This document shows positions 1,485-63,858 of a stretch of 64,000 bases of DNA, piece after piece. This DNA comes from Pelagomonas calceolata. Its lineage: Eukaryota > Sar > Pelagophyceae > Pelagomonadales > Pelagomonadaceae. Both the position numbers and the translations under genes were made by a program. Below the pieces are notes generated by a model that was not told the origin of the DNA, ran no database searches, and worked only from the letters and a program-made list of their open reading frames with translations. Every line of letters starts with the position of its first letter. Position 1 is the stretch's first letter. The stretch lies in NCBI GenBank assembly GCA_918797485.1, contig CAKKNE010000006.1, positions 2,232,001-2,296,000 of the forward strand, read 5' to 3'.

Positions 1485-1507
1485 GCTAGTGTGTCTATGA
1501 ACTAGCT
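1485..1507 (-). promoter_or_regulatory. CTAG palindromic upstream element, degenerate copy
   Basis: GCTAGTGTGTCTATGAACTAGCT. The outer GCTAG/CTAGC arms of the recurrent element are kept, but the inner GCCG block is lost. It lies mid-way (about 210 bp from each ATG) in the 444-bp gap between the divergent katanin p80 and BioD-like genes. I see nothing else in this gap. Confidence 0.5.
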
Positions 1508-1713
1508 CCAGCCTCCCCAATAGGCGTCCGCACGATCACATACGCGCAAACCTAGACATACTGTCCTTCGATCGACGTACCAGCCTCCGCGAAAGCCCTG
1601 CTTGTATACGTAGGCCGGGTTGCAGCTTTGGCCCAACCAGTACTCCAGAGCCAAAAGAGTCCCAGTCCATCCGCGGCGGGGATAAACGCTAGACATCGTA
1701 AAAAGACAGCAAA

Positions 1714-2664
1714 ATGGCCGCCCTGGCCGGCGCCTGGGCGCGCGAGGTCGCCGCCGACGCCTGGCCCGGCCCCGTCAACGAAGGCGCACCGAGAGCTACA
1801 CGATTGTTTGTGGCCGGCGGCGCTACCCACGCGGGCAAGTCGACCGTTTGTTTAGGCATCCTCCAAGCAGCTCTGGAAAAGTACGGCGCTTCCAATATAG
1901 CCTACGTCAAGGCCGCCACCCAAGATGAAAGAGAAGACACGGTGTCGCGGTGGTGCTCTACAAATAAAGTCGAGTATCGTTCGGGAAAGCATTGTCCTAT
2001 TGTGTACTACGCGGGCTTTACAAGAGCGTTCCTCGACGGCTCGGCGGGCACGTCGGCCCAGTGGTTGGATAGAGTCGCATCAGTAGTGGACGACCTCGCC
2101 CAGAACCGGAAATTCGTGCTGGTGGACGGCGTCGGCTTCCCGGCCGTCGGGAGCATCTGCGGCACGTCGAACGCGGATGTCGCCAAACGCCTCGAGGCGC
2201 CCGTTTTGTTAGTGGTGAAGGCGGGCGTCGGGGCTGCTATCGACGAGGCGAATTATGGCACGGCCTTCTTCGGGTCGCGGGACGTGCCCGTGCTAGGCGT
2301 CGTCTTGAACAGAAGCGCCTCTCAGGGCTTCTACGCTAGAGAGAAGATTCTCGCGCCCGTGCACGCGTACTTCGCCAAAACTAGATTGGGGCTGTACGGC
2401 GTCATTCCCGACGAGCCGTCGCTGACGAATCTGAGGAACGAGGCCGCGTCGTCGGACATCGACACGGCACCGGTTGCAACTCACGTGCGGAAGCACGTCG
2501 ATGTCGAGCAATTGATGTCAGACGCGGCGCGCGACCCCTGGAATTCTCGTAGAGCGCCGCCCTCCTCTACAGCAATGGACGCCATCGACGCCGACGATTT
2601 GCGGCTGCGCATCCAGCAGGCCGCGGCGCAGCTGGGGGCCGAGGTCGTCAAGGAGAAGTGCTGA
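1714..2664 (+). CDS. BioD-like P-loop NTPase (phosphotransacetylase N-terminal type)
   Basis: A 316-residue protein of the dethiobiotin-synthetase-like P-loop fold. A Walker A motif GGATHAGKST sits near residue 35. Around residues 140-180, VDGVGFPAVGSICGTSNAD followed by VLLVVKAGVG resembles the Walker B and substrate-loop region of BioD and of the AAA_26 domain found alone or at the N-terminus of phosphotransacetylases. GVVLNR near residue 200 is the base-recognition strand seen in the same fold. True BioD is about 220 residues and ligates CO2 to diaminopelargonate. Here the extra C-terminal tail (residues 255-316) and the changed loop make the substrate uncertain. The ATG at 1714 is preceded by an A-rich context (aaaatgg). 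The gene ends 97 bp before the stop of the convergent neighbour. Confidence 0.65.
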   Translation: MAALAGAWAREVAADAWPGPVNEGAPRATRLFVAGGATHAGKSTVCLGILQAALEKYGASNIAYVKAATQDEREDTVSRWCSTNKVEYRSGKHCPIVYYAGFTRAFLDGSAGTSAQWLDRVASVVDDLAQNRKFVLVDGVGFPAVGSICGTSNADVAKRLEAPVLLVVKAGVGAAIDEANYGTAFFGSRDVPVLGVVLNRSASQGFYAREKILAPVHAYFAKTRLGLYGVIPDEPSLTNLRNEAASSDIDTAPVATHVRKHVDVEQLMSDAARDPWNSRRAPPSSTAMDAIDADDLRLRIQQAAAQLGAEVVKEKC

Positions 2665-2761
2665 GGCGGCGGGTGAAGTCGTATTCCTCCCCCTTGCGTG
2701 ATTCGTGACGGCCCGTACCTACTCAGTAGTGGGGTGCGGGCCCGAGTAATTGCTCCATTTA

Positions 2762-3547
2762 CTACTTGCGGTCCATCGGGGCGACGGCGACGACTTCCGC
2801 GACGGCTTGCGGCGTTGCGGCGGCGCCGTAGGGCGGCGGAGCGACGGTCGTTCCGACCGGTTGCGCCGCTTGCGGCGGCGGCGGCGCGTAGCCTTGGACG
2901 ACGGCGCCCGTTGGGGCGGCGGCGTAAGGCGGCGGCTGCGTCACGTGGCCTTGCACGACGCCGCCCGCCGTTGGGGGATAGCTGGAGTTGTACGGCGACG
3001 GAGCAACGGTCGTCGGGACCGCCGGGCCCGGCGCAACTACCGTTCCGACCGCCGGGTTCGCCGCCGGGGAAACTATCGTTCCGACCGCCGGCCCTGCCGC
3101 TGGGACGGCTCCCGCCGTGACGACCACCGCTGGTGCGTTGGCTGGCGTGTAGGCGAGGAGTAAGCCGGGAAACTTCATGGCTCGACCCTTCAAGAGATTG
3201 ACCCACGGCTCGAGCGTGATCCCGAGCGGCGCGAAGGTTTGAGCGTGGCGCGTGCAGAGCTCCTGCATGGCCGTCCACCACTTGTTTCGCACCTCGCCGG
3301 GGCTGTCGAAGCACGGGCCAGAACACCCACATCCGCCGCACTGGGAGAGCGCGAGCGAGGGGAGTTTGTATAACTCTTGGCGGAAGGGCTCCCATTGCGA
3401 TTCTGTGACGCCTTGCGCGGTGAGCCCGGCCGTCAGTCCGCCGTTCGACGATATACGATTGAGTTGGTGCTTGTCGCTGCCGCCCATGAAGAAGAATTTC
3501 GTGCCCTCGGCGCTGTCCTCCGCCGGGATGTGGTGGGCGGCGGACAT
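2762..3547 (-). CDS. Unknown protein with a conserved N-terminal domain and Pro/Ala/Val-rich tail (paralogue of 3882-4868)
   Basis: I do not recognise this 261-residue protein. Residues 1-125 form a compact domain that it shares with the divergent neighbour: GTKFFFMGGS, then RISSNGGLTAGLTAQGV, QWEPFRQELYKLPSL and later FAPLGI. A short cysteine cluster, CGGCGCSGPC, lies near residue 72 and could bind metal. Residues 130-261 are low complexity, with repeated VVQGYAPPPP/VGTTVAPPP-type blocks, which suggests a disordered or multivalent tail. There is no signal peptide or clear membrane span. The start ATG (3545-3547) is the first in frame. The two genes face away from a common 334-bp gap and probably arose by an inverted duplication. 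Confidence 0.6.
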   Translation of the reverse strand: MSAAHHIPAEDSAEGTKFFFMGGSDKHQLNRISSNGGLTAGLTAQGVTESQWEPFRQELYKLPSLALSQCGGCGCSGPCFDSPGEVRNKWWTAMQELCTRHAQTFAPLGITLEPWVNLLKGRAMKFPGLLLAYTPANAPAVVVTAGAVPAAGPAVGTIVSPAANPAVGTVVAPGPAVPTTVAPSPYNSSYPPTAGGVVQGHVTQPPPYAAAPTGAVVQGYAPPPPQAAQPVGTTVAPPPYGAAATPQAVAEVVAVAPMDRK

Positions 3548-3881
3548 AGTCTGCCGTTCGACGCGCGAGTTAGTCTAGCGTTCGTGACCGCTTAATTATA
3601 CTCTCTCCGTTCGAGGACAGCACGACGTGGAGCAGTCTACTAATTCTTGAGCTGAGACAAAAGTATATAATTCTAGGCGGCTCGTAACCCGCAGTAAACG
3701 TTGGTAAGTGCACGTATTCGTCGTATTTACAGCAAGGTTTTCCGCGTGAAGAGGAGATATGGCGCGATCGTACGCGTACGTAAACATAAAAATAAGCTAT
3801 AAGGCTTGGCTTTTTTTTCGGGTTTTTCACGCTTTTTGCTGCAGCTGCGGCGTAATAGAGGAGGACAGACCGGGCGTTTTG

Positions 3882-4929: not shown

Positions 4930-4953
4930 GCTAGCGGCCTGTAAGACACTAGG
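4930..4953 (+). promoter_or_regulatory. CTAG palindromic upstream element
   Basis: GCTAGCGGCCTGTAAGACACTAGG is a near-consensus copy, followed by GATGCCTAGG. It lies 251 bp upstream of the transporter ATG at 5204, in a 335-bp gap that also follows the stop of the upstream plus-strand gene. No other feature is seen in the gap. Confidence 0.75.
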
Positions 4954-6184: not shown

Positions 6185-6209
6185 ATTATCTGTAAAAAAT
6201 ACAACATGA

Positions 6210-7184: not shown

Positions 7185-7210
7185 GCTAGCGGTCCGTAAC
7201 ACACTAGCAA
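7185..7210 (+). promoter_or_regulatory. CTAG palindromic upstream element
   Basis: GCTAGCGGTCCGTAACACAC followed by TAGCAA. It lies in the 411-bp divergent gap, 208 bp from the RluA ATG and 179 bp from the sulfotransferase-like ATG. The rest of the gap shows no feature. Confidence 0.7.
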
Positions 7211-8517: not shown

Positions 8518-8540
8518 TGCTAGTGTCTTGCGACGCTAGC
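8518..8540 (-). promoter_or_regulatory. CTAG palindromic upstream element
   Basis: TGCTAGTGTCTTGCGACGCT followed by AGC. It lies 166 bp upstream of the BRCT gene ATG. The gap 8353-9259 (about 900 bp) also holds a hairpin-forming repeat and a dispersed repeat copy, listed separately. No convincing gene was seen in it. Confidence 0.7.
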
Positions 8541-12498: not shown

Positions 12499-12521
12499 CT
12501 AGTGTCTCTACAGGCCGCTAG
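12499..12521 (-). promoter_or_regulatory. CTAG palindromic upstream element
   Basis: CTAGTGTCTCTACAGGCCGC followed by TAG, preceded by GGATGC. It lies 194 bp upstream of the thioesterase ATG, in the 259-bp space between this ATG and the stop of the next gene. Confidence 0.7.
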
Positions 12522-15992: not shown

Positions 15993-16021
15993 GCTAGCGG
16001 CCGGTAAAGACACTAGCAAGC
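15993..16021 (+). promoter_or_regulatory. CTAG palindromic upstream element
   Basis: GCTAGCGGCCGGTAAAGACA followed by CTAGCAAGC. It lies 189 bp upstream of the plastid membrane protein ATG, in a 386-bp gap otherwise without visible features. Confidence 0.75.
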
Positions 16022-18479: not shown

Positions 18480-18502
18480 GCTAGCGGCTGTAAGACACTA
18501 GG
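18480..18502 (+). promoter_or_regulatory. CTAG palindromic upstream element
   Basis: GCTAGCGGCTGTAAGACACT followed by AGG and then AATGCCTAGC. It lies 257 bp before the ATG at 18759 and 358 bp from the LRRC56-like ATG, in a 636-bp divergent gap. A weak similar piece is at 18361-18384. Confidence 0.75.
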
Positions 18503-20206: not shown

Positions 20207-20231
20207 TGCTAGTGTCTTACAGGCCACTAGC
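20207..20231 (-). promoter_or_regulatory. CTAG palindromic upstream element
   Basis: TGCTAGTGTCTTACAGGCCA followed by CTAGC is a strong copy. It lies 206 bp before the fibrillarin ATG and 322 bp from the coatomer ATG in the 551-bp divergent gap. Nothing else is recognised in the gap. Confidence 0.8.
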
Positions 20232-20436: not shown

Positions 20437-21324
20437 ATGGGCGGCTTCGGCTCGCCCGGCGGCGGACGGGGACGAGGCGGCAAGGGCCGCGGGAGAGGAG
20501 GAGGCAAGGGCGGCCGCGGCAGAGGCGGCGGCAAGGGCAAGGGCCGCGGCAAAGGAGGCAAAGGCAAGGGCAAGGGCAAGGGCGGCGCCAAGGGCGGCGC
20601 CAAGGTCGTCGTCGAGCCTCATAGACATGAGGGCGTCTTCATCGCGAGAGGCAAGGAGGACGTCATTGTGACCCTCAACAGCACCCCCGGCAAGGACGTC
20701 TATGGGGAAAAAAGAATTAGTGTGGACGGCCCGGCGAACGAGGACGGCACGACGACCAAGATTGAATACAGAGTGTGGAATCCGTTCCGCTCGAAGCTGT
20801 GCGCCGCAATCCTCGGCGGCGTCGATACGATACACATGAAACCCGGTAGCAAAGTTTTATACTTGGGAGGCGCCGCGGGTACCACAGTATCCCACGTGTC
20901 TGATCTAGTCGGCCCGCAGGGCTGCGTCTACGCCGTCGAGTTCTCGCACCGGCCGGGCAGAGATTTGATTAATATGGCCAAGCATAGAACCAACGTCATT
21001 CCCATAATAGAAGATGCCAGACACCCGCTCAAGTACCGCATGTTGGTGGGCATGGTCGATTGTGTGTTTGCGGACGTCGCGCAGCCGGATCAAGCCCGAA
21101 TTGTCGCGTTAAATTCGCAGTACTTCCTCAAGGCGGGCGGCGGCTTCGTGGTCTCGATCAAGGCGTCGTGTATTGATAGTACGGCGACGCCGGAGGCCGT
21201 CTTCGCCGCCGAGGTCGCGAAGCTCCAGAAGGACCAGTTCAAGCCCAAGGAGCAGCTGACGCTCGAGCCGTACGAGCGCGACCACGCGGTCGTGGTTGGC
21301 TTGTACCGGCCGCCCAAGAAGTAG
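20437..21324 (+). CDS. FBL: Fibrillarin (rRNA 2'-O-methyltransferase)
   Basis: The box C/D snoRNP methyltransferase of the nucleolus, which 2'-O-methylates rRNA using SAM. In this 295-residue protein, residues 1-55 are a Gly/Arg/Lys-rich (GAR-like) region in which lysine often replaces arginine. The catalytic domain follows: [18 protein letters not shown], the SAM loop [31 protein letters not shown], and [12 protein letters not shown] with the catalytic Asp, then [11 protein letters not shown] 20437 fits the family start [14 protein letters not shown]. Identification is secure. Confidence 0.96.
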
Positions 21325-22251: not shown

Positions 22252-22274
22252 GCTAGCGTCATAAACACACTAGG
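22252..22274 (+). promoter_or_regulatory. CTAG palindromic upstream element
   Basis: GCTAGCGTCATAAACACACT followed by AGG. It is a divergent copy in the 510-bp gap 21999-22508, about 250 bp upstream of the calcium-repeat fragment. Nothing else is recognised in the gap. Confidence 0.55.
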
Positions 22275-23154: not shown

Positions 23155-23308
23155 CTGTGGGTGTACCGTAGGCGTTGCCGCCATGGCCACCTGTAAAGTG
23201 ACCGATACGCGATTCGAACGCGTAACCTTCAGGACTGGAATCTGACGCGCTGCCGTTGCGCCAATCGGTCGGTCGAAGACAAGTAACGATGAGACGCCGC
23301 CGCGGTAC
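23155..23308 (-). repeat. tRNA-Trp-bearing intron-like unit, copy 1
   Basis: A 154-bp unit running GTACCGCGGC...CACCCACAG on the minus strand around a tRNA-Trp. Both edges are shared with 24242-24391 and with the coding-gene insert at 50931-51077. Similarity to the 24-kb copy continues about 20 bp beyond the GT edge. If spliced, it is a 5'-UTR intron of the gene starting at 23141. Confidence 0.55.
23199..23270 (-). tRNA. tRNA-Trp (CCA)
   Basis: 72 nt with a 7-bp acceptor stem GACCGAT/ATCGGTC, discriminator A, D-arm GCGC...GCGC, anticodon loop TTCCAGT with CCA (reads UGG), and T-arm ACGCGTTCGAATCGCGT containing the B box GTTCGAATC. It has no intron. The anticodon stem has one A-C mismatch at its loop-proximal pair, shared by all three copies in the window. 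It differs from the other two by one base in the D-loop (GGCA instead of GGTA). Confidence 0.93.
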
Positions 23309-23479: not shown

Positions 23480-23504
23480 GCTAGCGGCATGTAAGACACT
23501 AGCA
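23480..23504 (+). promoter_or_regulatory. CTAG palindromic upstream element
   Basis: GCTAGCGGCATGTAAGACAC followed by TAGCA is a strong copy. It lies 339 bp upstream of the ATG at 23141, beyond the tRNA-Trp unit, in the 491-bp gap before the stop of the deacylase gene. If the tRNA unit is a 5'-UTR intron, the element is about 170 bp upstream of that intron. Confidence 0.8.
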
Positions 23505-24241: not shown

Positions 24242-24391
24242 CTGTGGGTGTACCGTCGGCATATCTCACCTGTTAAGCCCAGTGACCGATACGCGATTCG
24301 AACGCGTAACCTTCAGGACTGGAATCTGACGCGCTACCGTTGCGCCAATCGGTCGAAGAGAGGGCACGCAGAGGAGACGCGGCCGCGGTAC
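24242..24391 (-). repeat. tRNA-Trp-bearing intron-like unit, copy 2
   Basis: A 150-bp unit, GTACCGCGGCCGCGTC...TGCCGACGGTACACCCACAG on the minus strand, containing a tRNA-Trp and lying 96 bp upstream of the deacylase ATG. Edges match copies 1 and 3. A CTTAAC branch-like sequence lies about 35 nt before the AG. Confidence 0.55.
24283..24354 (-). tRNA. tRNA-Trp (CCA)
   Basis: 72 nt, identical to the copy at 50964-51035 and one base different from 23199-23270. It has the acceptor stem GACCGAT/ATCGGTC, CCA anticodon in the loop TTCCAGT, and B box GTTCGAATC. It lies just upstream of the D-aminoacyl-tRNA deacylase gene, which acts on tRNAs, though this may be chance. The rest of the gap 24146-24876 shows no other feature, and the frames that read through the tRNA are not genes. 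Confidence 0.93.
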
Positions 24392-25629: not shown

Positions 25630-25927
25630 CTTGTTGAGTCTTCTTTTGCGCGTCGACGGCGTATTGGGGGTCCGCATCGATGGCGTGAAATCGAGGCATC
25701 TGTTTCCTAGTATGTCCATACGCTAGATCACTAGGTCTTAAGGCCCGCCAAAATACACCAGCGATTGAAGGCGCCTTCTACCATCCGAATAGTACATTAT
25801 ATCAACTCCAGCCCAGTTTTCATACATATTGGACGGAACCGGAGCCGACGGCCCGCGCTCGGAGGGCGGGAGAAGAATTCTACTAGACAACTCCCGGGTT
25901 TATGTTCGTTTCCTTCCGTTTGTTGGT

Positions 25928-27027: not shown

Positions 27028-27051
27028 GCTAGTGTCTTACAAGCCGCTAGC
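27028..27051 (-). promoter_or_regulatory. CTAG palindromic upstream element
   Basis: GCTAGTGTCTTACAAGCCGC followed by TAGC is a strong copy, 234 bp upstream of the RRM-RsmH fusion ATG at 27285. Confidence 0.8.
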
Positions 27052-28874: not shown

Positions 28875-28884
28875 TTGTAGTGTG

Positions 28885-29409
28885 TTAAATGACGTTAAGC
28901 CCGAAGCCCAGCCCCTTCGACAGCACGACCGAGCGCAGCCTCACTTGAAAATAGACGTCCGCGTTCGGCGGGATGATGGATCCTGCTTTTTCGCCGGACT
29001 TGGGGTAGCCTGTGCTACCATAAGCGAGCTTCGCCGGGAGCTTGCACCGCCGCGTGCCGCCGATGTTCATGTCGGCCAGGAGGCACTCCTCCAATCCCGG
29101 CGCTACTTTTTTTTCGCCGAGTTTGACTTTGATAGGCTTCTCGAAGCGCGAGAACTCCTTGCCCTCGAAGTCGTTGAGCCACGCGATGTAGTCGATCGTG
29201 ACGGTGTTATCTATTTTTGCCGGGCCGTCGCCCTGGCCAACCTTGACGTCGTAGTACTCTAAACCGGAGGCGGTTTTGGTCATCTCTTGGGCATGCGTCG
29301 GCGTCGGCAGGGCGAGGGCCGCGGGCGCGCCTAGCATCCATGCGCGGCGGTGCATCGGTTTCAGAGCGCTTGCTGCACATGCCGTGGCTGCGATGGCGAG
29401 GAGCTGCAT
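28885..29409 (-). CDS. FKBP-type peptidyl-prolyl isomerase, thylakoid lumen type
   Basis: A 174-residue immunophilin that would speed proline isomerisation in protein folding. The leader MQLLAIAATACAASALKP is a plastid-directed signal peptide. A second hydrophobic segment with a twin-arginine-like start (HRRAWMLGAPAALALPTPTH) ends in AQE and suggests thylakoid lumen import. The FKBP domain follows: SGLEYYDVKVGQGDGP, VTIDYIAWLNDFEGKEF, VAPGLEECLLADMNIGGTRR, and LAYGSTGYP. Some aromatic pocket residues differ from FKBP12, as is common in lumenal FKBPs. Its stop is 10 bp from the stop of the convergent fusion gene. Confidence 0.9.
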   Translation of the reverse strand: MQLLAIAATACAASALKPMHRRAWMLGAPAALALPTPTHAQEMTKTASGLEYYDVKVGQGDGPAKIDNTVTIDYIAWLNDFEGKEFSRFEKPIKVKLGEKKVAPGLEECLLADMNIGGTRRCKLPAKLAYGSTGYPKSGEKAGSIIPPNADVYFQVRLRSVVLSKGLGFGLNVI

Positions 29410-29535: not shown

Positions 29536-29559
29536 GCTAGTGCCTTACATGCCGCTAGC
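29536..29559 (-). promoter_or_regulatory. CTAG palindromic upstream element
   Basis: GCTAGTGCCTTACATGCCGC followed by TAGC. It lies 127 bp from the FKBP ATG and 252 bp from the channel ATG in the 401-bp divergent gap. Nothing else is recognised in the gap. Confidence 0.8.
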
Positions 29560-33090: not shown

Positions 33091-33113
33091 CTAGTGGTCT
33101 TACAGACGCTAGC
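33091..33113 (-). promoter_or_regulatory. CTAG palindromic upstream element
   Basis: CTAGTGGTCTTACAGACGCT followed by AGC. It lies 160 bp from the Noc1 ATG and 139 bp from the syntaxin ATG in the 320-bp divergent gap. Confidence 0.7.
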
Positions 33114-34251: not shown

Positions 34252-35544
34252 TTAAAGCATATGTCTTAAGCTACTCCATTTTCCCGAAGAGGAGGAGTCT
34301 CGGCGCCCGATATTCTGATCCGAATATGCGATGCGCTGTTCTGCGTGCTGCTTCTTCGCCGCAAGATACTCGTCGAGGTTGTCGAACTCGCGGCCGGGGA
34401 AAACGTGGTTGTTGGCCCACTTGCCGTTTTGTTTCTGATAGCCCCCCTCAACAGACACCCTTTCTAGCTCCGATTTGAACTTCATGCGCTTTGCCGAACG
34501 GTGACTAAATGTCGCTCTGAGCGTTGGCGCCTCGGGGTCGACAATCACCTTCGGCGCCGGCGCGCGTCCAGATCGGCGCGGTGTAGCCGCCGCCGCCAGC
34601 GTCGGCGGTAGCGCGGCCAACACTGAGGCGAGCGGCGCCTCCCCGGGAAAGTTGACGGCCGGCTCGTTCCTATACTCGACCAGCGCGGCGTCGTAGGCCC
34701 GCGCGGCGTCCTCCTCCTCGTCGAAGTCGCCGAGGTGAACTTTAGACCCTAGCAATTTGATCTGCGCGGTCCACTTGCCCCTATGCCGGCGCACGCCCGT
34801 AAATCGACTGGTCTTGGGGGCGCGGACCGGCGCGGGCCGCGCGGCAGGGACCGGCGCCGGTGCCTGCTTGTACTCAGCCTCAGTGCGGTAGGCACCGCCG
34901 GTTCGCGCGAGGGCGAGGGCGCCCTCGAGGTACTTCCTCAACGCGGACAACGACTGCGCATAGTCATGGGTTACGTAGTCCTTGCCGGTGACGTCGTAGT
35001 AGCACGGGAAGTCTTGAGGCACCGTGACGGCGAATTTGGTTTCATTCTCCTGTCCCGCGCCACAGATGAAGCCACGGCTCACCAGCGGCTCGTGGAGGCC
35101 CCTCATGTTCGTGCGATCCTTGAGCGCCTCGAGCAGGTCCGTGCAGACGGTGACCCAGGCCGACGCCGTCGACGCGACGTGTCGCCTCGTCGCGGGCTGC
35201 GGTGCCGGCGCGCCTGGCCTGGGTGCGAGGCAGACGTCGCCCTGTTTTGCCCGGCAGGGAGCACATTCGCCACAACGCCGATGAGGTAGGCCACAGCCGC
35301 AGCTCGCCGGGCACGGGTAGGTGCGGCGCGGCGCTACGGCGCGTGGCCTTGTCTGTGCGTCCCGGGGCACGACGGCGCGCGGAGCCGGTGGCGTGCCCAA
35401 CGCGCGAGGCGTCGACGCCGGCGGCGGGGCGGGTGGGGCCATCACCGGCGGCGGCGAATTGCCGTCGCTCAGAGACTCGCTCTCGCGTTGCGCGACGATG
35501 ATGGCGTCAAGCTGGAGCAGGACGTGGGGCGGCGGGAGTTCCAT
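34252..35544 (-). CDS. AP2/ERF-domain protein with Cys-rich motif
   Basis: A 430-residue likely transcription factor. One AP2 domain at about residues 248-305 (SRFTGVRRHRGKWTAQIKLL, KVHLGDFDEEEDAARAYDAA) would bind DNA through a three-stranded sheet. Upstream, around residues 77-106, is a cysteine cluster CPASCGCGLPHRRCGECAPC followed by a further Cys, with CxxxCxCx6CxxCxxC spacing that could hold zinc. Between them is an unknown conserved-looking block (DFPCYYDVTGKDYVTHDYAQ). The C-terminus repeats a KMKFKSELERVS/GGYQKQNGKW segment of unknown role. The start ATG is at 35544. Confidence 0.78.
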   Translation of the reverse strand: MELPPPHVLLQLDAIIVAQRESESLSDGNSPPPVMAPPAPPPASTPRALGTPPAPRAVVPRDAQTRPRAVAPRRTYPCPASCGCGLPHRRCGECAPCRAKQGDVCLAPRPGAPAPQPATRRHVASTASAWVTVCTDLLEALKDRTNMRGLHEPLVSRGFICGAGQENETKFAVTVPQDFPCYYDVTGKDYVTHDYAQSLSALRKYLEGALALARTGGAYRTEAEYKQAPAPVPAARPAPVRAPKTSRFTGVRRHRGKWTAQIKLLGSKVHLGDFDEEEDAARAYDAALVEYRNEPAVNFPGEAPLASVLAALPPTLAAAATPRRSGRAPAPKVIVDPEAPTLRATFSHRSAKRMKFKSELERVSVEGGYQKQNGKWANNHVFPGREFDNLDEYLAAKKQHAEQRIAYSDQNIGRRDSSSSGKWSSLRHML

Positions 35545-35721: not shown

Positions 35722-35745
35722 GCTAGCTGCTGTAAGGCACTAGCA
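35722..35745 (+). promoter_or_regulatory. CTAG palindromic upstream element (proximal of two)
   Basis: GCTAGCTGCTGTAAGGCACT followed by AGCA, 178 bp upstream of the AP2 gene ATG. A second, consensus copy is 105 bp further up in the same orientation. Confidence 0.75.
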
Positions 35746-35826: not shown

Positions 35827-35854
35827 GCTAGCGGCCTGTAAGACACTAGCAAGC
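35827..35854 (+). promoter_or_regulatory. CTAG palindromic upstream element (consensus copy)
   Basis: GCTAGCGGCCTGTAAGACAC followed by TAGCAAGC is the best match to the window consensus. It lies 283 bp upstream of the AP2 gene and 70 bp from the stop of the cyclin H gene. The 379-bp gap has no other visible feature. Confidence 0.85.
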
Positions 35855-37150: not shown

Positions 37151-37175
37151 TGCTAGTGTCTTACATGCCGCTAGC
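37151..37175 (-). promoter_or_regulatory. CTAG palindromic upstream element
   Basis: TGCTAGTGTCTTACATGCCG followed by CTAGC is a strong copy in the 441-bp divergent gap, 154 bp from the cyclin H ATG and 264 bp from the RING-H2 ATG. Confidence 0.82.
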
Positions 37176-39391: not shown

Positions 39392-39413
39392 GCTAGTGTA
39401 GACAGGCACTAGG
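39392..39413 (+). promoter_or_regulatory. CTAG palindromic upstream element, degenerate copy
   Basis: GCTAGTGTAGACAGGCACTA followed by GG keeps both CTAG arms with an altered middle. It lies in the 365-bp divergent gap, 128 bp upstream of the methyltransferase ATG. Confidence 0.5.
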
Positions 39414-41825: not shown

Positions 41826-41852
41826 TGCTAGTGTGTCTTACATGCCGCTAGC
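41826..41852 (-). promoter_or_regulatory. CTAG palindromic upstream element
   Basis: TGCTAGTGTGTCTTACATGC followed by CGCTAGC lies midway (about 115 bp from each ATG) in the divergent gap between the cyclophilin-like and F-box genes. Confidence 0.8.
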
Positions 41853-45306: not shown

Positions 45307-45333
45307 GCTAGCGTATGTAAAGCCACTAGCAAG
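45307..45333 (+). promoter_or_regulatory. CTAG palindromic upstream element
   Basis: GCTAGCGTATGTAAAGCCAC followed by TAGCAAG. It is 215-216 bp from each ATG in the 456-bp divergent gap between the coiled-coil and E2 genes. Confidence 0.7.
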
Positions 45334-50266: not shown

Positions 50267-50294
50267 GCTAGCGGCTGTAACACACTTAGCAAGC
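50267..50294 (+). promoter_or_regulatory. CTAG palindromic upstream element
   Basis: GCTAGCGGCTGTAACACACT followed by TAGCAAGC. It is 170 bp from the ATG of the coiled-coil gene and 371 bp from the Psb28 ATG in the 567-bp divergent gap, which shows no other feature. Confidence 0.75.
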
Positions 50295-50463: not shown

Positions 50464-51894
50464 ATGCCGCGGAGCGCCAGACACACGATGGGCGGCCGGG
50501 AAGTCCTCGACGCGAAGACGATGCTGGACCTGCTCGAGGGCTCGGCCTCCGACGGCGGGCCCACGGTCACCATCGACGTGGACGTGTTCAAGGACAACTT
50601 CGGCGCGCCGCCGCCGCGGCGGAGCAGCGTCTCGGGGGGCCGGCGGTCGAGCTCGAGCGGCGCCTCGCGCCGCCGCGAGACGGCGGACCCGGCGCAGCTC
50701 AAGGAGCTGCTCCAGGCGTGCCTACTCGAGGGCAACGACGCGGCGGCGGCCGCGAGCCCGACGAGCCAGCCGCCGCGGCCCGCGCCGCGCCGGAGCCCGC
50801 GCTTCGCCAAGCCGCGGAGGCGGATGACGTGCGACCCGCGCCTGCTGAACCGCCTCGTCATGGAGCACTCGGGCGAGATCCCGACGATCCCCGAGGAGAC
50901 GAGCGCCACGGAGTCGCTCACGTCGAACCCGTACCGCGGCCGCGTCCGTCGTAGGTGCCTTCCGACCGATTGGCGCAACGGTAGCGCGTCAGATTCCAGT
51001 CCTGAAGGTTACGCGTTCGAATCGCGTATCGGTCACTGCCAGCTCGTCGATGCGCGCTGCCGACGGTCCACCCACAGGCTCACGAGCAATCTGACGAGCA
51101 ACCCGGCGACGAGCAACCTCACGAGCGGCGTCAGCAACCTCACGTCGGGCACGGGGCTCGAGTCCTTCGAGGAGAGCCGCGCGGCGGCGGCGCACGAAGA
51201 TCCACAAGAGAACGAGGACGACGACGACGACGAGGACGACGTGAGCTACGCGCGGCCCGTCGCGGCGCGTTCGTCAATTGCGTGGACCTTCGACGAGACG
51301 CGCGCGACGATGCAGGAGCTGCGGCGCCAGCTGCAGATCGAGAAGGAGGTGTCGCGCGACGCCGAGCGCGAGCGCGACGAGCTCGCGCGCGAGTTGAGTG
51401 GAATGCGCGCGGAGCAGGCCGCTAGAAGCGAGGTGCAGCAGGCGCTCGAGGCGCAGCGCGACGCGGCGGCGGCGCGCGCGTCGTCGGCCGAGGGCCGCGC
51501 GACGCGCGCGGACGCGGCGCTCGGCCGGCAGTCCCAGGAGTTCGCGGCCATCGACGCGGACCTCGCGGCGCGGGAACGGGAGATTGAACAAAGCGCCGAG
51601 CGCGTGAAACTCGAGGCCGACGCGCGCGTCGCCGCGGCCGAGCGCGACAAGGCCGAGGCCGAGGCCGAGCTCCTCGCGTTGAGGGACGAGGCGGCGGCTT
51701 TACGGGCGCGCGTGGCGCAGCTCGAGAAGGTCAAGATCACGTCGGGCCTCGCGGCGAAGATCCAGAAGGTCGTTCAGGAGCGCGACGAGTTATTGGCGGC
51801 GGCGCGCAAGGGCGGCCGGTTCAACGACGAGAACGCGGCGCCGTTCGGCGCCGAGGACCTCTCCCAGGCCGGCGGCGAGTGCCGCCAGTCCTAG
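50464..51894 (+). CDS. Unknown coiled-coil protein; gene interrupted by an intron carrying tRNA-Trp
   Basis: Read as two exons (50464-50930 and 51078-51894) this encodes 427 residues. The first part is basic and serine-rich with GGREVLDAKTMLDLLEGSAS. Around the junction, removal of the insert restores a repeat, ...SLTSNP-LTSNLTSNPATSN, so splicing is more sensible than reading through the tRNA. The second exon has an acidic run, then a long coiled coil (ETRATMQELRRQLQIEKEVS, EREIEQSAERVKLEADARVA, AEAELLALRDEAAALRARVA) to near the end. The insert is 147 nt and happens to keep the frame open. A filament, centrosomal or tethering role is possible but unproven. Confidence 0.65.
   Translation: MPRSARHTMGGREVLDAKTMLDLLEGSASDGGPTVTIDVDVFKDNFGAPPPRRSSVSGGRRSSSSGASRRRETADPAQLKELLQACLLEGNDAAAAASPTSQPPRPAPRRSPRFAKPRRRMTCDPRLLNRLVMEHSGEIPTIPEETSATESLTSNPYRGRVRRRCLPTDWRNGSASDSSPEGYAFESRIGHCQLVDARCRRSTHRLTSNLTSNPATSNLTSGVSNLTSGTGLESFEESRAAAAHEDPQENEDDDDDEDDVSYARPVAARSSIAWTFDETRATMQELRRQLQIEKEVSRDAERERDELARELSGMRAEQAARSEVQQALEAQRDAAAARASSAEGRATRADAALGRQSQEFAAIDADLAAREREIEQSAERVKLEADARVAAAERDKAEAEAELLALRDEAAALRARVAQLEKVKITSGLAAKIQKVVQERDELLAAARKGGRFNDENAAPFGAEDLSQAGGECRQS
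50931..51077 (+). repeat. tRNA-Trp-bearing intron-like unit, copy 3 (inside a protein gene)
   Basis: A 147-bp insert beginning GTACCGCGGCCGCGTC and ending TGCCGACGGTCCACCCACAG. GT...AG ends are present, phase 2, and removal gives a repeat-consistent protein. The same edge sequences bound the tRNA-Trp units at 23155-23308 and 24242-24391. GCTCACG occurs on both sides (50916-50922 and 51078-51084), which could be a target-site duplication or merely the host gene's own repeat. Confidence 0.6.
50964..51035 (+). tRNA. tRNA-Trp (CCA) nested in an intron
   Basis: 72 nt, identical to the copy at 24283-24354: acceptor GACCGAT/ATCGGTC, D-arm GCGCAACGGTAGCGC, anticodon CCA in TTCCAGT, T-arm with GTTCGAATC, discriminator A. 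It has the same sense as the host gene. The internal A and B boxes are intact, so it could be transcribed on its own by RNA polymerase III. Confidence 0.9.
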
Positions 51895-58380: not shown

Positions 58381-60654
58381 ATGTGGCTCCTCACGCAAAC
58401 AAACCCACCCCAAGACGGCTCGAAGCCGACCATCTTCCGCCTGCCGCGCGGCAGGTCCAACGTCGGCCGCAAGGACCAGCCGGTTTTGATCGCAGAAAAA
58501 TCTGTATCTAGAAACCACGGCTACGTCACTTCTGATGGCAAAACGCTCAAAGTGGGCGACGGCGGCTCGAAGTTCGGGACCCACGTCGATGGGAAAAAAG
58601 TTTCCAGTGAATCGGAAGTGCAGGAAGGCCAGGTCATAAGGTTTGGCGGGCGAGAAGACGGCTCCGCGGACTTCCGCGCGTCCAAAGAAAGTGTCCTGAT
58701 CGCCCTGACGGCGTGCGGCGAGAAGCATGCTGCCTTCAAAACGCAAGCGCTCACGTGCGGCCTCGATGTCATCGGCGAGCACGACGCGTGGCCCCAGGTG
58801 CCCATCGCTTGTGTTTCTACTGCCGATCCTTCCAAGAAGAAACCTTTCTCTGTTGCCTGTTTAAGAGCTGCTGCGTTGGGTGTGAAACTAGTGCAACCTT
58901 CCTACCTCGAGGCGTGGCAGTCTCGCAATCCCTTATCTGAAGCGCCGCCGGCCGTCGAGGACCACCTGCTGCCTTCCTCACAACTATTACAAAGGATCGG
59001 CGAGTCGTGTGCTTCTGCTCTGGAAAATCTACGATTAGTTTTCGTCGGCGACGCGCTAGGCGACCTGCAGCACACGCTCCAAAGTCTCGGTTTTAAGGAC
59101 CAGTGCCCGTCCGTCACGAGAGCCCAGGCGTCCGCTACGACGCTGCCGGCGTGCCTACGAGGCTTCACTGGGAAAGTCGCCGTCGTCTCGGCGGACCCGT
59201 GCTTTGGGCCGCTCGCGCAGCCGCCGCGCTTCTTCGAGGCCGAAAAGTTGGTGGCGGCTTTAGTTGATGGTGCACCTTTAGCTTCGGTCGACGCGGCGTC
59301 GCTGGTGCCTACGCCGGCGCCTCCTGCGCCGGCACCGAAGCGGTCGAAGCGCCGCACCGACGAGACCGACGACGGCGCGGAGCCGGAGCCGGCGCCGGCG
59401 CCGGCGCCGCGGCGGTCGCCTAAAAGAAAAGCGAGGGAGGCGCCTTCACCAGCACCGAAGCGGTCCAAGACCGACGAAGATTTTGATGAGGCCGCCGCCA
59501 CGCGCGCGGCGAAGAAGCTGAAGGTCGCGGAGTTGCGGGCGGCGCTCGAGGCCCTGGGCGAGGCGACGGACGGCACGAAACCTATCTTAGTCGAGCGGCT
59601 CGTCGACGCGCGGCGCCGCGCGGCGGCAACCCCCGCGGAGCCCTCGCCGGAGCCCCCGCCGCCCCCGTCGCCGGAGCCGTCGCCGGCGCCGCCGCCGGAG
59701 CCCTCGCCGGAGCCGTCGCCCGCGCCGAAGCGCCCGCGTCGCTCGCCGAAGCGCAAGGCCCGCGAGGAGCCGTCGCCGCCGCCGAAGCGCCAGCGCGCCG
59801 CAGAAGAGGAGGCGCCGCCGCCGCCGCCGCCGGAAGAAGATGATGAAGACGAGTTCGACCTCGCGGCGGCCATGGACGCGCCGCGCGCCGCGCCGGCGCC
59901 GGCGCCTCAGGCCGCGTCGCCGTCGCCGCCACCTAGAAGGAAGCGTCGAGCTGCCGAGGAAGAAGAAGAGTCGCCGGCGCCTGTACCAAAGCGCAAGAAG
60001 AAGCGGCGCGAGGAAGAACCCGTGGTCCAAAGGCGGGGCCCCACGCATGTGCCGCCGCCTTCACAAAGAAAGCCCGCCGACACGACGGGCGGCGGCTGGC
60101 TGAGTACGTCAGAACACGCCGTCGCGAATGATGAGGGAGGCGACGTCGACCCGGAAGCGGCGCTCGCGGCGCAGTTAGCTGACCAGGAGCCCGAGGTCGT
60201 CGAGGAGGCCCCGAAGCCGAAGGCGAAGCGGGGCGGCCGTGCGACGAAGCCGTCGAAGGCCGAGGAAGCGAGGCAATTGGACGCCTTCGCCGAGAGCGGC
60301 GCGCGCGATAAAGAATTAGACAAGGCCTACGCGAACTGCGTGGCTCCTCGGGCGCCGACGGTCGTGCGCGATCTCGTCGTGCCGCGGAAGGAAAGGCCGG
60401 CCACAGCTTCCAAGAAGAAGAAGGGCCCCAACTTCAAGAGGTTCCGCAAGAACGCCGTCCGCGTCGCGCCCGCGTCGGACATCGTGACGGGCGATTACCT
60501 GGACAAGCTTGCTGCTGCGGAAAGCGAGACCGAGCTGCAACTACGACGGGACGCGGCTGCTCTCGCGCAGGAGAAGGCTCGGGCGGAGGAGGACTGGGAC
60601 GACGACGCGGCGCCCAAACCTAAAAGGAAGCCTGCGGCGCGGAAGCGGCGCTGA
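58381..60654 (+). CDS. NBN: Nibrin (NBS1)-like MRN-complex subunit with added SAP domain
   Basis: A 757-residue protein of the Mre11-Rad50-Nbs1 complex, which senses DNA double-strand breaks. The FHA domain (about 15-90) has LPRGRSNVGRKDQPVLIAEK, then SVSRNHGYV and KFGTHVDGKK, the phosphothreonine-binding pattern. BRCT1 follows (about 100-180; VACLRAAALGVKLVQPSYLE) and a BRCT2-like region (about 215-305; NLRLVFVGDALGDLQHTLQS). Residues about 370-408 (ATRAAKKLKVAELRAALEAL) form a SAP DNA-binding motif. After a long Pro/Lys/Glu-rich linker, PNFKRFRKNAVRV near residue 683 matches the Mre11-binding NFKxFxK motif. The SAP insertion is not usual in nibrin. Confidence 0.85.
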   Translation: MWLLTQTNPPQDGSKPTIFRLPRGRSNVGRKDQPVLIAEKSVSRNHGYVTSDGKTLKVGDGGSKFGTHVDGKKVSSESEVQEGQVIRFGGREDGSADFRASKESVLIALTACGEKHAAFKTQALTCGLDVIGEHDAWPQVPIACVSTADPSKKKPFSVACLRAAALGVKLVQPSYLEAWQSRNPLSEAPPAVEDHLLPSSQLLQRIGESCASALENLRLVFVGDALGDLQHTLQSLGFKDQCPSVTRAQASATTLPACLRGFTGKVAVVSADPCFGPLAQPPRFFEAEKLVAALVDGAPLASVDAASLVPTPAPPAPAPKRSKRRTDETDDGAEPEPAPAPAPRRSPKRKAREAPSPAPKRSKTDEDFDEAAATRAAKKLKVAELRAALEALGEATDGTKPILVERLVDARRRAAATPAEPSPEPPPPPSPEPSPAPPPEPSPEPSPAPKRPRRSPKRKAREEPSPPPKRQRAAEEEAPPPPPPEEDDEDEFDLAAAMDAPRAAPAPAPQAASPSPPPRRKRRAAEEEEESPAPVPKRKKKRREEEPVVQRRGPTHVPPPSQRKPADTTGGGWLSTSEHAVANDEGGDVDPEAALAAQLADQEPEVVEEAPKPKAKRGGRATKPSKAEEARQLDAFAESGARDKELDKAYANCVAPRAPTVVRDLVVPRKERPATASKKKKGPNFKRFRKNAVRVAPASDIVTGDYLDKLAAAESETELQLRRDAAALAQEKARAEEDWDDDAAPKPKRKPAARKRR

Positions 60655-61962
60655 TGGGCTCCTAGGCCGTGTATAAGGTGTGATATACTTATCTAATCGT
60701 ACTGTGTAGGGCGGCTTCCATGGATCGGACCAGAGAGTTTGGTCAGTACCTGGAACCGGCTTCCATGTATGCTTCGAAACTGCGTCTCCGCCGCGAAGAA
60801 GGAGGATTTCACGGGCCTCATCCGCATCCTCATCACTCTCACAGTGTAACCAAGTATAAAAGTCGGAGAACACACGCAGGCGCGGGCACCCCCGCACCAA
60901 CCGCAGCACGTGCTCTCCGCCCAGATCGAGGCCACGGTCCGTTTTAGAGATTTCTATCTCCTCGAGCGACGCCGCGCTGGAGCTACCAAGGATACCGTCA
61001 ACGATTCCAGGGTCGTCACCAATTTGATCGCAATCTAGGGCTACAAGGCACCTCAGACTCAAAGACGAGCATGCTGCTGCGATGTGGCTATCTTCTGTGG
61101 TCTCGGACGCACAGAATTCGAGATAAGCGAGCTCGGGGCGCGCATGCGCGAGCGCTTCATAGAACGCGACGCCTCCAAGCTCATTCTTGGGAAGAACTAA
61201 CACCCGTAGCTGGGGAAACCCTCGCGCACAGGCCAAAAGATCATCGGCATCAACTTGACCATCACGAAATGACAGGGCCCGGAGCCGGGTCCCGAACGGC
61301 GTGCCAATGAACAGGTCAACGACGGGGCGCGCAATTTGGCACTGATTACAATACAATTCGACGGCACTTGCGCACACGCGCAATGTCTCCGATATGGCAG
61401 CTAAGTCGGTGGGAACATAATCATCAGTCAGCTCACCACTTCTATCCGGACTTAGGTGCACCTGGCGCAGTTTGGGGAAGCACCTTGCCCAGGTCTCGGC
61501 GGGGCTGACCTCATCCCAACCAGAAAATTTGACATCCTCCAACAGCGGACACGCGCTACCAATGGCAGCGGCTCTCTCCATAGTGATGCAGACGTGTGAC
61601 GAAGCGTCGAGGGACACTAGGTTAGGCGCCGTCCTGCACCACTCGACGAGAAAATTGTCTCTTGGAAGGCTCTGGCCATTCAGGACGGCATAATTAGGTG
61701 TGGTAGACCATTCAAGATGACGGCACGCGTGGCCAAACGCACGCGCCACGAGCATCCGCGACTCCATCGATCGAGTAGATCTCAACTGCACACGAGAGCA
61801 CCCAACGTGTGACCCCGCGGCATACCGAATCGCATCGCGGCAATGCGTCGACTGGCAGCGGAGGCCCAGGAGCTCGTGACCGTGCAAGTAGCTGGTGATA
61901 TGGCAGAGCGCGTCCCGCGGCAGGGTGTCTAGAGCTATGACCTGCTCAGGCGGCTGAGCCAT
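60541..61962 (-). CDS. F-box/leucine-rich-repeat protein
   Basis: A 473-residue protein. ALDTLPRDALCHITSYLHGH followed by ELLGLRCQSTHCRDAIRYAA at residues 9-48 is an F-box. The rest is built of Amn1/FBXL-type repeats (CPLLEDVKFSGWDEVSPAET, CFPKLRQVHLSP, FPQLRVLVLPKNELGGVAFY, CPRLRVFSDFYTW). Such proteins recruit targets to SCF ubiquitin ligases. The start ATG is at 61962. The last 38 codons run antisense into the nibrin coding end (60541-60654), and this tail (RPRSPSAPLPRRRLPFRFGR) is not family-like. Either the genes truly overlap or an unseen intron near 60660 ends the protein earlier. Confidence 0.75.
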   Translation of the reverse strand: MAQPPEQVIALDTLPRDALCHITSYLHGHELLGLRCQSTHCRDAIRYAAGSHVGCSRVQLRSTRSMESRMLVARAFGHACRHLEWSTTPNYAVLNGQSLPRDNFLVEWCRTAPNLVSLDASSHVCITMERAAAIGSACPLLEDVKFSGWDEVSPAETWARCFPKLRQVHLSPDRSGELTDDYVPTDLAAISETLRVCASAVELYCNQCQIARPVVDLFIGTPFGTRLRALSFRDGQVDADDLLACARGFPQLRVLVLPKNELGGVAFYEALAHARPELAYLEFCASETTEDSHIAAACSSLSLRCLVALDCDQIGDDPGIVDGILGSSSAASLEEIEISKTDRGLDLGGEHVLRLVRGCPRLRVFSDFYTWLHCESDEDADEAREILLLRGGDAVSKHTWKPVPGTDQTLWSDPWKPPYTVRLDKYITPYTRPRSPSAPLPRRRLPFRFGRRVVVPVLLRPSLLLRESSRVPS

Positions 61963-62107
61963 TTTTTTTTAGCCGCAGTTCTCGTCGCAGCGCTATCCTT
62001 CGCAAGTACTGCTCCGCTGCGGTTCGCGGCGCCCCCTGTGAGCTCCGCTGTGGACAATTTGGCCCAGCAATTATGGTCGACTCCAAGACTCCAAAGTCGA
62101 CCCGAAT

Positions 62108-62132
62108 TGCTAGTGCCTTACATACCGCTAAC
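62108..62132 (-). promoter_or_regulatory. CTAG palindromic upstream element
   Basis: TGCTAGTGCCTTACATACCG followed by CTAAC. It lies 54 bp before the prolyl hydroxylase ATG (the shortest distance in the window) and 146 bp from the F-box/LRR ATG. Confidence 0.75.
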
Positions 62133-62185
62133 TCATTTTTTCGAGCAGTTTCGAGCCCGCAGGGCCATTGGCAGCATAGAGAGCA

Positions 62186-63730
62186 ATGAGAGCGCTACTT
62201 ACATTCGCATTGCTGGCCTGCAGCGCGCGGGCCGGCTGGTTCAGCCGCGGTGGCACTGAAAAGCCAGATACCAAAAAAGCAGCCCCAGCAACACCAGCCG
62301 CGCCCGACGCCGCCGAGAAAAAGACAAAGGCGCCGCCGCCGCCGCCCGTCGAAGAGCTGGCCGCCGCCGAAAGGGACCACACCTGCGCCGCCGGCCTCGT
62401 GTTCGATGTCTACGCGAACGGCGCGTCTGAAAATCCGGTCAGAGTAGAAATGTCCGGCGGCCAGTGCGAGACGGTAGCGGCCTTCGAAGCTGCCGTGTCG
62501 AGAGCGGTTTGTGAAGATACGGCGGCCTGTCATGTGCGAGACGGCGCCGGGAGAAGAGTACGGCGCTGCTCCGAACTCTCGAGAAACAGCGCCGAGGCGG
62601 GCGTCCAGCCTGGATTAATCCCGCGGGCCTACGGTGTCAGGAGAGACATGCGCTGGGTCTTTCCGACGGAGGAGGTTGGTTATAAACGATACTTACCCCA
62701 CCTGCAGATCACGTTAACGACGCTCGCGGAGGAGCCTCGACTTTTCGCCCTCGACAACTTCCTGACCGAAGAGGACGCGTCGCAGCTCATCGAAGACGCC
62801 CTAGCTATTTCTGATGATGAGCACAAGCTGACACGGAGTAGTGTGGGCGCCAAGGGCTACACGGTGTCCTCCACGAGAACGTCGGAGAATGCTTGGGTCA
62901 AAGATACAAAAACGGCCATGCGCATGAAACGTCGAGCGTTTGAATTACTGGGCTTCGACCATTACGACGAGCGCATGGCCGACGGGCTGCAAGTTCTCAG
63001 ATATAACAACACGAATGGCTATGCGGCGCACAAGGACTACTTAGATAGGCCGCGAGGTTTGTCGAGGGAAGCGATGGAGCCGTCCCTGGGTGGTGCTAAT
63101 AGACTCGCGACGGTGTTCTTGTACTTATCCGACGTGCAACACGGCGGCCAGACGGTCTTTCCTCACGCGCCGCGGCCTTCGATTGCATCATCATTACCAG
63201 CTTTGGAGTCCAGACCGTTAGATGACGAGGTCATTGGACTGAGAGACGCTATAGTATCAAAAGATGAATACACGTGGGAGCCCCGTTTGATCGATGAGTG
63301 CTATACCAAATTAGCAGCAGCCCCGAAGAAAGGTCGCGCGATCCTCTTCTACAGCCAACATCCGGATGGTACGTTGGACAACATGGCGACGCACGGCGGC
63401 TGCCCCGTCCTCGAGGGCACGAAGTGGGCGTCGAATCTGTGGATCTGGAACAAGGCGATGCCCTTTGGTTCTTCTCGGTTCCAGTCAAAGGACGACGATT
63501 CAGGAGATAGCTCAGGCGTCGACGTCGAGGTCTCTACTACTGGTGTCAGTGCCGAAGTGTTCTGGGTTGGTGGCGGCGGCGAGGAGGCGCCCATGGGGAC
63601 GGTCTCACAGGGAGACAACCTGCGGCTGAACTCGTTCGTGGGACACTCGTTCGTGGCGCGGCGGAATGGCGCGGAAGTTTCTAGGTATACGGTCGCGCGG
63701 GGGGCGCAGGCGTGGGCCGTGCCTCCGTAA
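62186..63730 (+). CDS. Prolyl 4-hydroxylase-type 2-oxoglutarate dioxygenase with C-terminal beta domain
   Basis: A 514-residue secreted or ER enzyme expected to hydroxylate prolines using Fe(II) and 2-oxoglutarate. MRALLTFALLACSARAGWFS is the signal peptide. The catalytic domain (about 185-435) opens FALDNFLTEEDASQLIEDAL. Iron ligands are in GYAAHKDYLDRP (HxD) and ATHGGCPVLEGTKW (His, then the 2-oxoglutarate Lys), ending with NLWIWN. About 50 residues are inserted between ATVFLYLSDVQHGGQTVFPH and GRAILFYSQHPDG. The C-terminal 65 residues (VSAEVFWVGGGGEEAPMGTV, SFVGHSFVARRNGAEVSRYT) resemble the VHL beta-domain-like tail seen in some algal P4Hs. Confidence 0.9.
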   Translation: MRALLTFALLACSARAGWFSRGGTEKPDTKKAAPATPAAPDAAEKKTKAPPPPPVEELAAAERDHTCAAGLVFDVYANGASENPVRVEMSGGQCETVAAFEAAVSRAVCEDTAACHVRDGAGRRVRRCSELSRNSAEAGVQPGLIPRAYGVRRDMRWVFPTEEVGYKRYLPHLQITLTTLAEEPRLFALDNFLTEEDASQLIEDALAISDDEHKLTRSSVGAKGYTVSSTRTSENAWVKDTKTAMRMKRRAFELLGFDHYDERMADGLQVLRYNNTNGYAAHKDYLDRPRGLSREAMEPSLGGANRLATVFLYLSDVQHGGQTVFPHAPRPSIASSLPALESRPLDDEVIGLRDAIVSKDEYTWEPRLIDECYTKLAAAPKKGRAILFYSQHPDGTLDNMATHGGCPVLEGTKWASNLWIWNKAMPFGSSRFQSKDDDSGDSSGVDVEVSTTGVSAEVFWVGGGGEEAPMGTVSQGDNLRLNSFVGHSFVARRNGAEVSRYTVARGAQAWAVPP

Positions 63731-63835
63731 GTTTATCGTGTGGTTAGCTTGCCTTTGGGGCCGCGTCGGCGGCTTCTTGCGGACGGCTATTCACGCAGTT
63801 TTAAGGCTCAGGCTCAGTTCGTCGCGTATTTAAAT

Positions 63836-63858
63836 ACTAGTGTGTTACTGGTCGCTAG
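63836..63858 (-). promoter_or_regulatory. CTAG palindromic upstream element
   Basis: ACTAGTGTGTTACTGGTCGC followed by TAG, downstream of the prolyl hydroxylase stop. It probably belongs to a gene beyond the right edge. The last 270 bp hold no other visible feature. Confidence 0.55.

Follow-up and report, generated by a model that had tools for sequence, protein, structure and literature searches.

By behaviour, the nearest known relative of the element described here is the CGCG element of vertebrates (TCTCGCGAGA), which is reported to be palindromic or imperfectly palindromic, bidirectional and used in either orientation in TATA-less promoters, to give main start sites at distances of 28 and 51 nt in a reporter assay, and to be 10 bp long, silenced by methylation and situated (93%) in annotated one-way promoters (PMC6192621). 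The subject of this analysis is a quasi-palindrome of ~27 bp (consensus AGCTAGCGGC(A/C)TGTAAGACACTAGCAA, from the 48 sites of the commonest span among 86) recognized in 64,000 nucleotides of the pelagophyte alga Pelagomonas calceolata (assembly GCA_918797485.1, contig CAKKNE010000006.1, C6:2232001-2296000; this whole stretch is called the window below). It is probably a general two-way promoter element, the site of a putative general factor that sets divergent transcription starts. Both elements are (quasi-)palindromic and orientation-free, the two-way output of the Pelagomonas element being deduced from sequence; however, they share no sequence, and the Pelagomonas element is far longer, is asymmetric in a fixed way and is found mainly between genes that diverge, whereas the CGCG element lies mostly in one-way promoters.

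The sites of the yeast factors Reb1, Abf1 and Rap1 are orientation-free and lie in open promoter regions of many genes; the Pelagomonas element shares the free orientation and the association with many genes. The Abf1 site is bipartite, a further likeness, and all three sites are shorter than the Pelagomonas element; unlike the latter, they have known proteins. Rap1 is reported to restrict, not promote, divergent transcription (PMC6602560). In Toxoplasma, the motif gCATGCa is reported at 44% of promoters, ~82 nt upstream of starts, with pervasive divergent transcription and long leaders, which according to a section heading of the same paper show no suppression of upstream AUG codons (PMC7854901). 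Like the Pelagomonas element, gCATGCa occurs at a large share of the promoters of one protist and has no factor assigned in that account; it differs in having only 7 letters and an unrelated sequence. Among stramenopiles, the oomycetes have a TATA-less core motif of 16-19 nt near transcription starts (INR/FPR), INR and FPR occurring together at the start site in ~13% of genes (PMC3599244). The oomycetes are distant kin, and the abstract mentions no two-way palindrome. An arrangement of this type, with a motif at the start fixed to the direction of the gene, was not found in P. calceolata, where orientation is free and the stretch 4-50 bp beyond the element has no strong positioned motif, no search aimed at the INR and FPR sequences being made. 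The human M4 motif (ACTAYRNNNCCCR), a site of THAP11, is reported in 520 copies in human promoter regions (PMC5006282); it is likewise a gapped motif common to many promoters, but its sequence differs beyond ACTA.

The initial annotation of the window knew of no described algal element of this sequence, and no description was found in the titles and opening lines of abstracts returned by searches of open-licence papers. In a full-text search, three 13-base core strings had a single match: GCTAGTGTCTTAC, present once in a study of yeast diphthamide genes. The terms "motif", "palindrom" and "promoter" are absent from the main texts of three Pelagomonas papers. The new results are a count over the whole genome, a placement test over 314 kb, a corrected anatomy, an all-or-none distribution, and indirect sequence evidence on transcription starts. 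Core promoters outside animals, fungi and plants have been little studied, and here, in a very abundant ocean eukaryote, one long, information-rich element accompanies over half of the gene starts sampled. With its help, transcript starts might be predicted from the DNA sequence with an accuracy of tens of bases, which would aid gene annotation; it could also serve algal genetics as a candidate bidirectional promoter, and would be well suited to testing how a divergent pair of genes is driven by a single bound factor.

Genome sample and copy number

The published assembly of P. calceolata RCC100 has six nuclear contigs (32.4 Mb) besides the plastid and mitochondrion, with 63.6% GC, and its annotation lists 16,667 genes with 0.45 introns per gene (PMC9481584). 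The genome searched here comprises 32,445,274 bases in 8 contigs. Placement was assessed in a sample of 314 kb, ~1% of the genome, made up of the window and 250 kb elsewhere, with blocks from all six nuclear contigs. Gene models came from a self-trained six-frame coding model, distinct from the published annotation, which labelled 228 kb of the 314 kb as coding; all statistics on placement and on ATG concern this one genome. Copies were sought with an untrained regular expression for exact arms (CTAGYG, 6-14 bases, CACTAG) and with a two-block weight model trained on the window alone (main cut-off, a score of at least 16; looser cut-off, 10), so that its recovery of the window copies is partly circular. 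The control in both cases was the reversed sequence or pattern.

All 22 positions listed by the initial annotation, which had counted about 20 good copies, are copies of the element. In the window, the exact-arm pattern has 18 distinct matches and the consensus, when as many as three mismatches are allowed, has 8 (0.00 in shuffles); the weight model at its main cut-off returns all 22 listed copies and two more, at 25707 and 28877, for a total of 24 sites, with none in the reversed window. The same window-trained model finds 62 sites in the 250 kb from five other chromosomes, again with none in the reversed sequence. At a score of 10, the counts are 26 in the window (3 reversed) and 67 elsewhere (2 reversed).

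Genome-wide, the exact-arm pattern has 4,375 matches (2,166 forward and 2,209 reverse, possibly lower bounds), compared with 58 (25 and 33) for the pattern read backward. The sample contains 68 exact-arm sites and 86 model sites; scaling the genome-wide exact-arm count by this ratio gives ~5,500 elements, and scaling the sample by length gives ~8,900, the sample being richer (0.22 exact-arm sites per kb) than the genome (0.135 per kb). A strand polarity, suggested by the mostly forward copies in contig C1 among the matches listed, was rejected as an artefact of the listing, the whole counts for the two strands being even.

Anatomy

The distance from CTAG to CTAG among the 86 sites is 20 bp (17 sites), 21 bp (14), 22 bp (48), 23 bp (3) or 24 bp (4). 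The four mirror pairs of CTAG are intact in 46-48 of the 48 sites of the commonest span, but the next pair inward is a fixed mismatch (C on the left in 44/48, A on the right in 48/48, a standard pair in 4/48). Thus, the mirror symmetry is incomplete, and the departure from it is itself conserved: the arms are mirror-like, as had been proposed, but the element is a quasi-palindrome and not a perfect palindrome. The centre, TGTAAGA, is fixed and asymmetric, in agreement with the initial description of a well-kept asymmetric centre. No stem with compensatory changes was found, the outer pairs being nearly invariant and the next pair mismatched.

Information outside the arms fades within ~4 bp, and farther out no position exceeds 0.13 bits. 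No target-site duplication beats shuffled flanks at the 0.05 level in 112 sites (k = 2, 3, 4, 5, 8 and 9; five offsets). A/T tracts flank the element, and the words CAAAA/TTTTG are concentrated within 40 bp of it on both sides (without a formal control). At a greater distance, in a region ~100-200 bp outside the element, CpG dips (at 150-175 bp), TpG/CpA rise, and the words GCTGC/GCAGC are frequent on both strands.

Placement relative to genes

None of the 86 sites in the sample lies within the 228 kb of model-coding sequence (p = 2.6e-49). Divergent gaps hold 47 of them, tandem gaps 32 and convergent gaps 4; the remaining 3 are at the ends of blocks. A site is present in 46 of 71 divergent gaps (12 of 19 in the window) versus 4 of 68 convergent gaps (Fisher p = 4.6e-14). 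Where the upstream gene has a stop codon close to its end, 29 of 63 tandem gaps hold a site, compared with 1 of the 25 that have no such stop, which are probably mostly introns. When both sides of divergent gaps are counted, 121 of 205 gene starts (59%) are served. A further 26 sites in contig C1, picked by pattern without regard to genes (20 of the 100 matches listed, mostly of span 22, and 6 of 8 loci), comprise 17 in divergent gaps, 5 in tandem gaps and 4 with one gene in view, with none coding or convergent.

Thus, enrichment near gene starts relative to gene bodies and 3' gaps, the absence of which the initial annotation had named as fatal to its proposal, was found across the 314-kb sample, and the claims that the element sits in most 5' gaps and in no gene body hold there as in the window. 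The claim that no convergent gap contains it is nearly right: of the four exceptions, one is a weak match in the window (28877), and the other three lie in gaps of 470, 814 and 2,563 bp, among the longest of the 68, which may each hide a missed gene.

Within divergent gaps, 39 of 47 sites fall in the middle third (Kolmogorov-Smirnov p = 0.0005). The median distances to the ATG are 179-208 bp, and most are 80-400 bp, with outliers from 2 to 1,558 bp, so that the range of 54-371 bp given previously is about right. Among tandem-gap sites, 12 point toward the gene and 19 away from it; therefore, there is no preferred orientation.

The genes served are functionally mixed. Pfam annotation covered 36 window proteins and, among the genes that flank divergent gaps in the remaining blocks, 30 of 48 with the element and 30 of 30 without, and no single gene programme emerges from the annotations of either set. 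Genes with the element include those for fibrillarin, a Mak21-like protein, pseudouridine synthase, ubiquitin-conjugating enzyme, a kinase, COX15, signal peptidase, oxygenases and an RPE65-like protein, and the element is therefore unlike the mark of one regulon. The element-less set includes dynein, kinesin and TMEM138.

Depletion of ATG and predicted transcription starts

Ribosomes scan from the cap, and therefore selection purges ATG from leaders and spares untranscribed DNA, which makes the loss of gene-sense ATG a proxy for the start of the transcript. Counts were made with two-site gaps excluded, so that 45 of the 46 element-bearing divergent gaps were used, and with the final 30 bp before each coding edge left out; L006 and L007, which duplicate L040 and L042, were also dropped. 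On 161 gene-facing sides, 25 ATG occur 12-62 bp ahead of the element versus 92 expected (successive bins 6, 3, 7 and 9 versus 19.8, 19.2, 27.1 and 26.3). In the interval 2-12 bp ahead the count is 13 versus 21.5, and 2-62 bp behind the element it is close to expectation, at 100 versus 118 (49 versus 58.9 and 51 versus 58.8). ATG is near its floor already 10-20 bp outside the element (4 in 1,600 positions).

In a change-point fit, gene-sense ATG drops from 13.0 to 3.6 per kb at a distance of 5 bp from the arm on its outer side (interval 5-8), and the delta log-likelihood of 42.7 is the highest of all 64 trinucleotides. The controls of the same composition, GAT, TGA, GTA, AGT and TAG, have deltas of 10.3, 2.5, 6.4, 0.6 and 2.6, and none steps at the edge of the element; CAT, which is the ATG of the opposite gene, has a mirror-image step at -32 (delta 29.4). 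In the 26 gaps in which the element is off centre, the first 30 bp contain 5 ATG versus 17.5 expected when aligned at the element, and 9 versus 17.6 when aligned at the midpoint. Between element and midpoint in these gaps, ATG is low when read in the direction of the nearer gene, the one on that side (13 versus 22.6), and normal when read in the direction of the other gene (21 versus 22.2). Element-less gaps aligned at their midpoints display no such step (ahead, 14 versus 16.2 and 14 versus 15.1; behind, 8 versus 17.9 and 18 versus 16.1). The depletion suggests that the 5' leaders of both neighbouring genes begin near the two edges of the element.

Interpretation and alternatives

The initial proposal, either a core promoter or a site bound by a general regulator, is supported in its class by the thousands of copies, the tie to gene starts in the 314-kb sample, the free orientation, the mixture of genes served, and the leader-like depletion of ATG that starts at the edges of the element. 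The feature is real and its class was rightly named, the interpretation placed on it being partly supported. As a general two-way promoter element, the 27-bp quasi-palindrome would be recognized by a putative abundant, sequence-specific factor, which, by analogy with known general regulatory factors, might keep the intergenic gap open. The bound factor would position the transcription machinery so that RNA synthesis begins ~0-40 bp outside each arm and proceeds outward both ways, and this two-way output would be independent of the orientation of the element. Free orientation combined with a conserved asymmetric sequence points to a single protein or complex that is itself asymmetric but acts symmetrically.

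Several observations weigh against this reading or blur it. No element accompanies 84 of the 205 sampled gene starts. The off-centre test rests on small numbers. The ATG step is sharp on the CTAGYG-arm side (5-8) but wide on the CACTAG-arm side (interval -52 to +10, delta 10.2), and tandem gaps give an interval of -28 to +18 (delta 8.2). Other trinucleotides shift strongly elsewhere (AAA at -61, delta 37.2; CAC at +33, 27.0; GTG at -60, 24.9; TTT at +27, 24.0; GGG at +39, 16.3), so that initiation may be dispersed across tens of bp, or further signals on the sense strand may play a part. The depletion also fades toward the gene (24 versus 41.1 at 92-122 bp; 33 versus 38.0 at 152-200 bp), perhaps because true starts lie there. 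Because of these wide intervals, the shifts of other trinucleotides and the fading depletion, the starts are probably best placed in a zone from the edge of the element to ~40 bp outside it, on both sides.

A factor like Reb1 or Abf1 that merely clears nucleosomes, with separate unseen core promoters setting the starts, is the alternative that deserves most attention, though it is rather unlikely. It would fit the free orientation, the central position in gaps and the A/T tracts alongside, ATG depletion beginning at the element simply because the open gap does, and it would accommodate the sense-strand signals that change 27-60 bp out. It does not readily explain why ATG is near its floor so close to the arms, why no position beyond 4 bp carries appreciable information, or why the 45 divergent gaps with one element show no enrichment of TATAA (11 versus 20 in the reversed sequence). 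The presence of the element at fibrillarin, CBF/Mak21 and pseudouridine synthase genes in the window could suggest a regulator of one programme, ribosome biogenesis, but service of well over a hundred sampled gene starts, the thousands of copies, and neighbours as diverse as those for a kinase, COX15, signal peptidase, oxygenases, an RPE65-like protein and ubiquitin-conjugating enzyme make this improbable.

The initial annotation had also offered a tiny transposon domesticated as a promoter, and many copies in both orientations with inverted ends are what a mini-transposon or repeat family inserting upstream of genes would leave. Yet the lack of target-site duplication, the end of information ~4 bp outside CTAG so that nothing is conserved beyond ~27 bp, the absence of copies from coding sequence, the conserved centre and the fixed mismatch of the arms speak against this part of the proposal, which is very improbable, though a mobile origin in the distant past is conceivable. 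Equally slight is the chance of a replication origin or boundary element, which would suit the central position in divergent gaps, but not several thousand copies in 32 Mb or a gene-sense ATG step that ties the element to transcripts. A signal acting in RNA, either a 5'-leader hairpin or a splice site, could account for the inverted arms and for GTAAGA in the centre, which resembles a 5' splice site; it is scarcely credible given an orientation that is free relative to the gene, stem pairs that are either invariant or fixed as a mismatch, and a leader-like stretch that starts outside the element.

A bolder form of the two-way promoter reading, tentative and on balance doubtful, is that the element is a double initiator: one symmetric 27-bp element would replace the logic of TATA box and initiator at more than half of the genes of an algal lineage, with divergent starts at both edges of one bound complex ~30-100 bp apart. 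Since the edges are so close, two initiation complexes would overlap, and the two genes may have to take turns.

Divergent gaps without the element

The 25 element-less divergent gaps contain no decayed copies, their best scores being equal to those of reversed gaps (Mann-Whitney p = 0.43); the distribution of the element in divergent gaps is all-or-none. A different word, GGCTGCCC, occurs in 15 of these 25 gaps (0 of 25 reversed) and in 11 of 45 single-element gaps. Counted together, GGCTGCCC/GGGCAGCC occurs 38 times in divergent gaps (1.05 per kb), 22 times in tandem gaps, never in convergent gaps, and 14 times in 228 kb of coding sequence. TATAA occurs 11 times in element-less divergent gaps versus 4 in reversed gaps, which are small numbers. 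The excess of GGCTGCCC and TATAA in element-less gaps hints, from these small numbers, at a second class of promoter. All-or-none presence of the element, with GGCTGCCC commoner where it is missing, would provide two promoter classes for comparison. The genome encodes a predicted TBP (two PF00352 matches in one 294-aa frame, C6:2195118-2195636).

Occurrence in other sequence collections

The full pattern has no match among the viruses of IMG/VR. The 14-base core matches 48 loci there, with a best model score of 26.0; these were taken to be unrelated, as among those scoring at least 14 none has both arms, and their GC content is 0.30-0.50, no chance level being attached to these counts. Prokaryote genomes yielded one match, in an algal piece within contig CAJWEZ010000013.1 of a Spirochaeta metagenome-assembled genome. 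The piece (L102:2043-2900, possibly continuing onward) is 97% identical to C1:2154808-2155663; thus, a contig that holds Pelagomonas-like nuclear DNA looks chimeric or contaminated. The element in this piece has, across the 21 bases listed, the same sequence as that at C1:2154909-2154929, which is the corresponding place to within a few bases; this is weak evidence, from a single site, that the element is conserved in apparently wild Pelagomonas DNA.

Copies in the window and neighbouring features

The following copies are given from CTAG to CTAG with strand and model score, and have exact arms unless described as inexact. Those in divergent gaps are at 1486..1505 (-, 25.7, inexact), 7186..7207 (+, 38.4), with a pseudouridine synthase gene (Pfam) to its left, 8520..8539 (-, 29.5, short span of 20), 18481..18501 (+, 37.7, span 21), 20209..20230 (-, 37.5), upstream of the fibrillarin gene (PF01269 match at 20437-21321), 29537..29558 (-, 36.5), 33091..33112 (-, 26.9), with a CBF/Mak21 gene (Pfam) to its left, 37153..37174 (-, 41.0, the best score of the window), 39393..39412 (+, 23.6, span 20), 41828..41851 (-, 31.6, span 24), 45308..45329 (+, 34.5) and 50268..50288 (+, 25.8, inexact).

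Tandem gaps contain the copies at 4931..4952 (+, 36.0), 12499..12521 (-, 26.9, span 23), 15994..16016 (+, 32.1, span 23), 22253..22273 (+, 33.2), 23481..23502 (+, 35.5), 25707..25726 (-, 24.1, inexact, absent from the earlier list) and 27029..27050 (-, 34.7), the last upstream of an RRM/MraW-methylase gene (Pfam), as well as a pair in a single gap at 35723..35743 (+, 29.3, inexact) and 35828..35849 (+, 38.5). The copy at 62110..62131 (-, 36.5, inexact) is upstream of a 2OG-oxygenase gene (Pfam), and that at 63837..63858 (-, 31.8) is at the end of the window. The match at 28877..28898 (-, 21.7, inexact), in a convergent gap of 47 bp, is weak and possibly due to chance.

The gap that holds two copies adjoins a gene for a possible DNA-binding protein (34345-35208, -), with a weak match to the AP2 domain (E 6e-06, 26.9 bits, under the curated cut-off of 33.3). 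Three tRNA-Trp(CCA) genes are found within 28 kb (23198-23270, -; 24282-24354, -; 50964-51036, +), compared with no tRNA predicted by ARAGORN in the 250 kb of other sampled sequence; the third is inside a 476-aa open frame labelled coding (50464-51894). A 473-aa open frame at 60541-61962 (-), mostly without coding signal and without a Pfam match, sits in a 1.6-kb gap with a strong AT skew.

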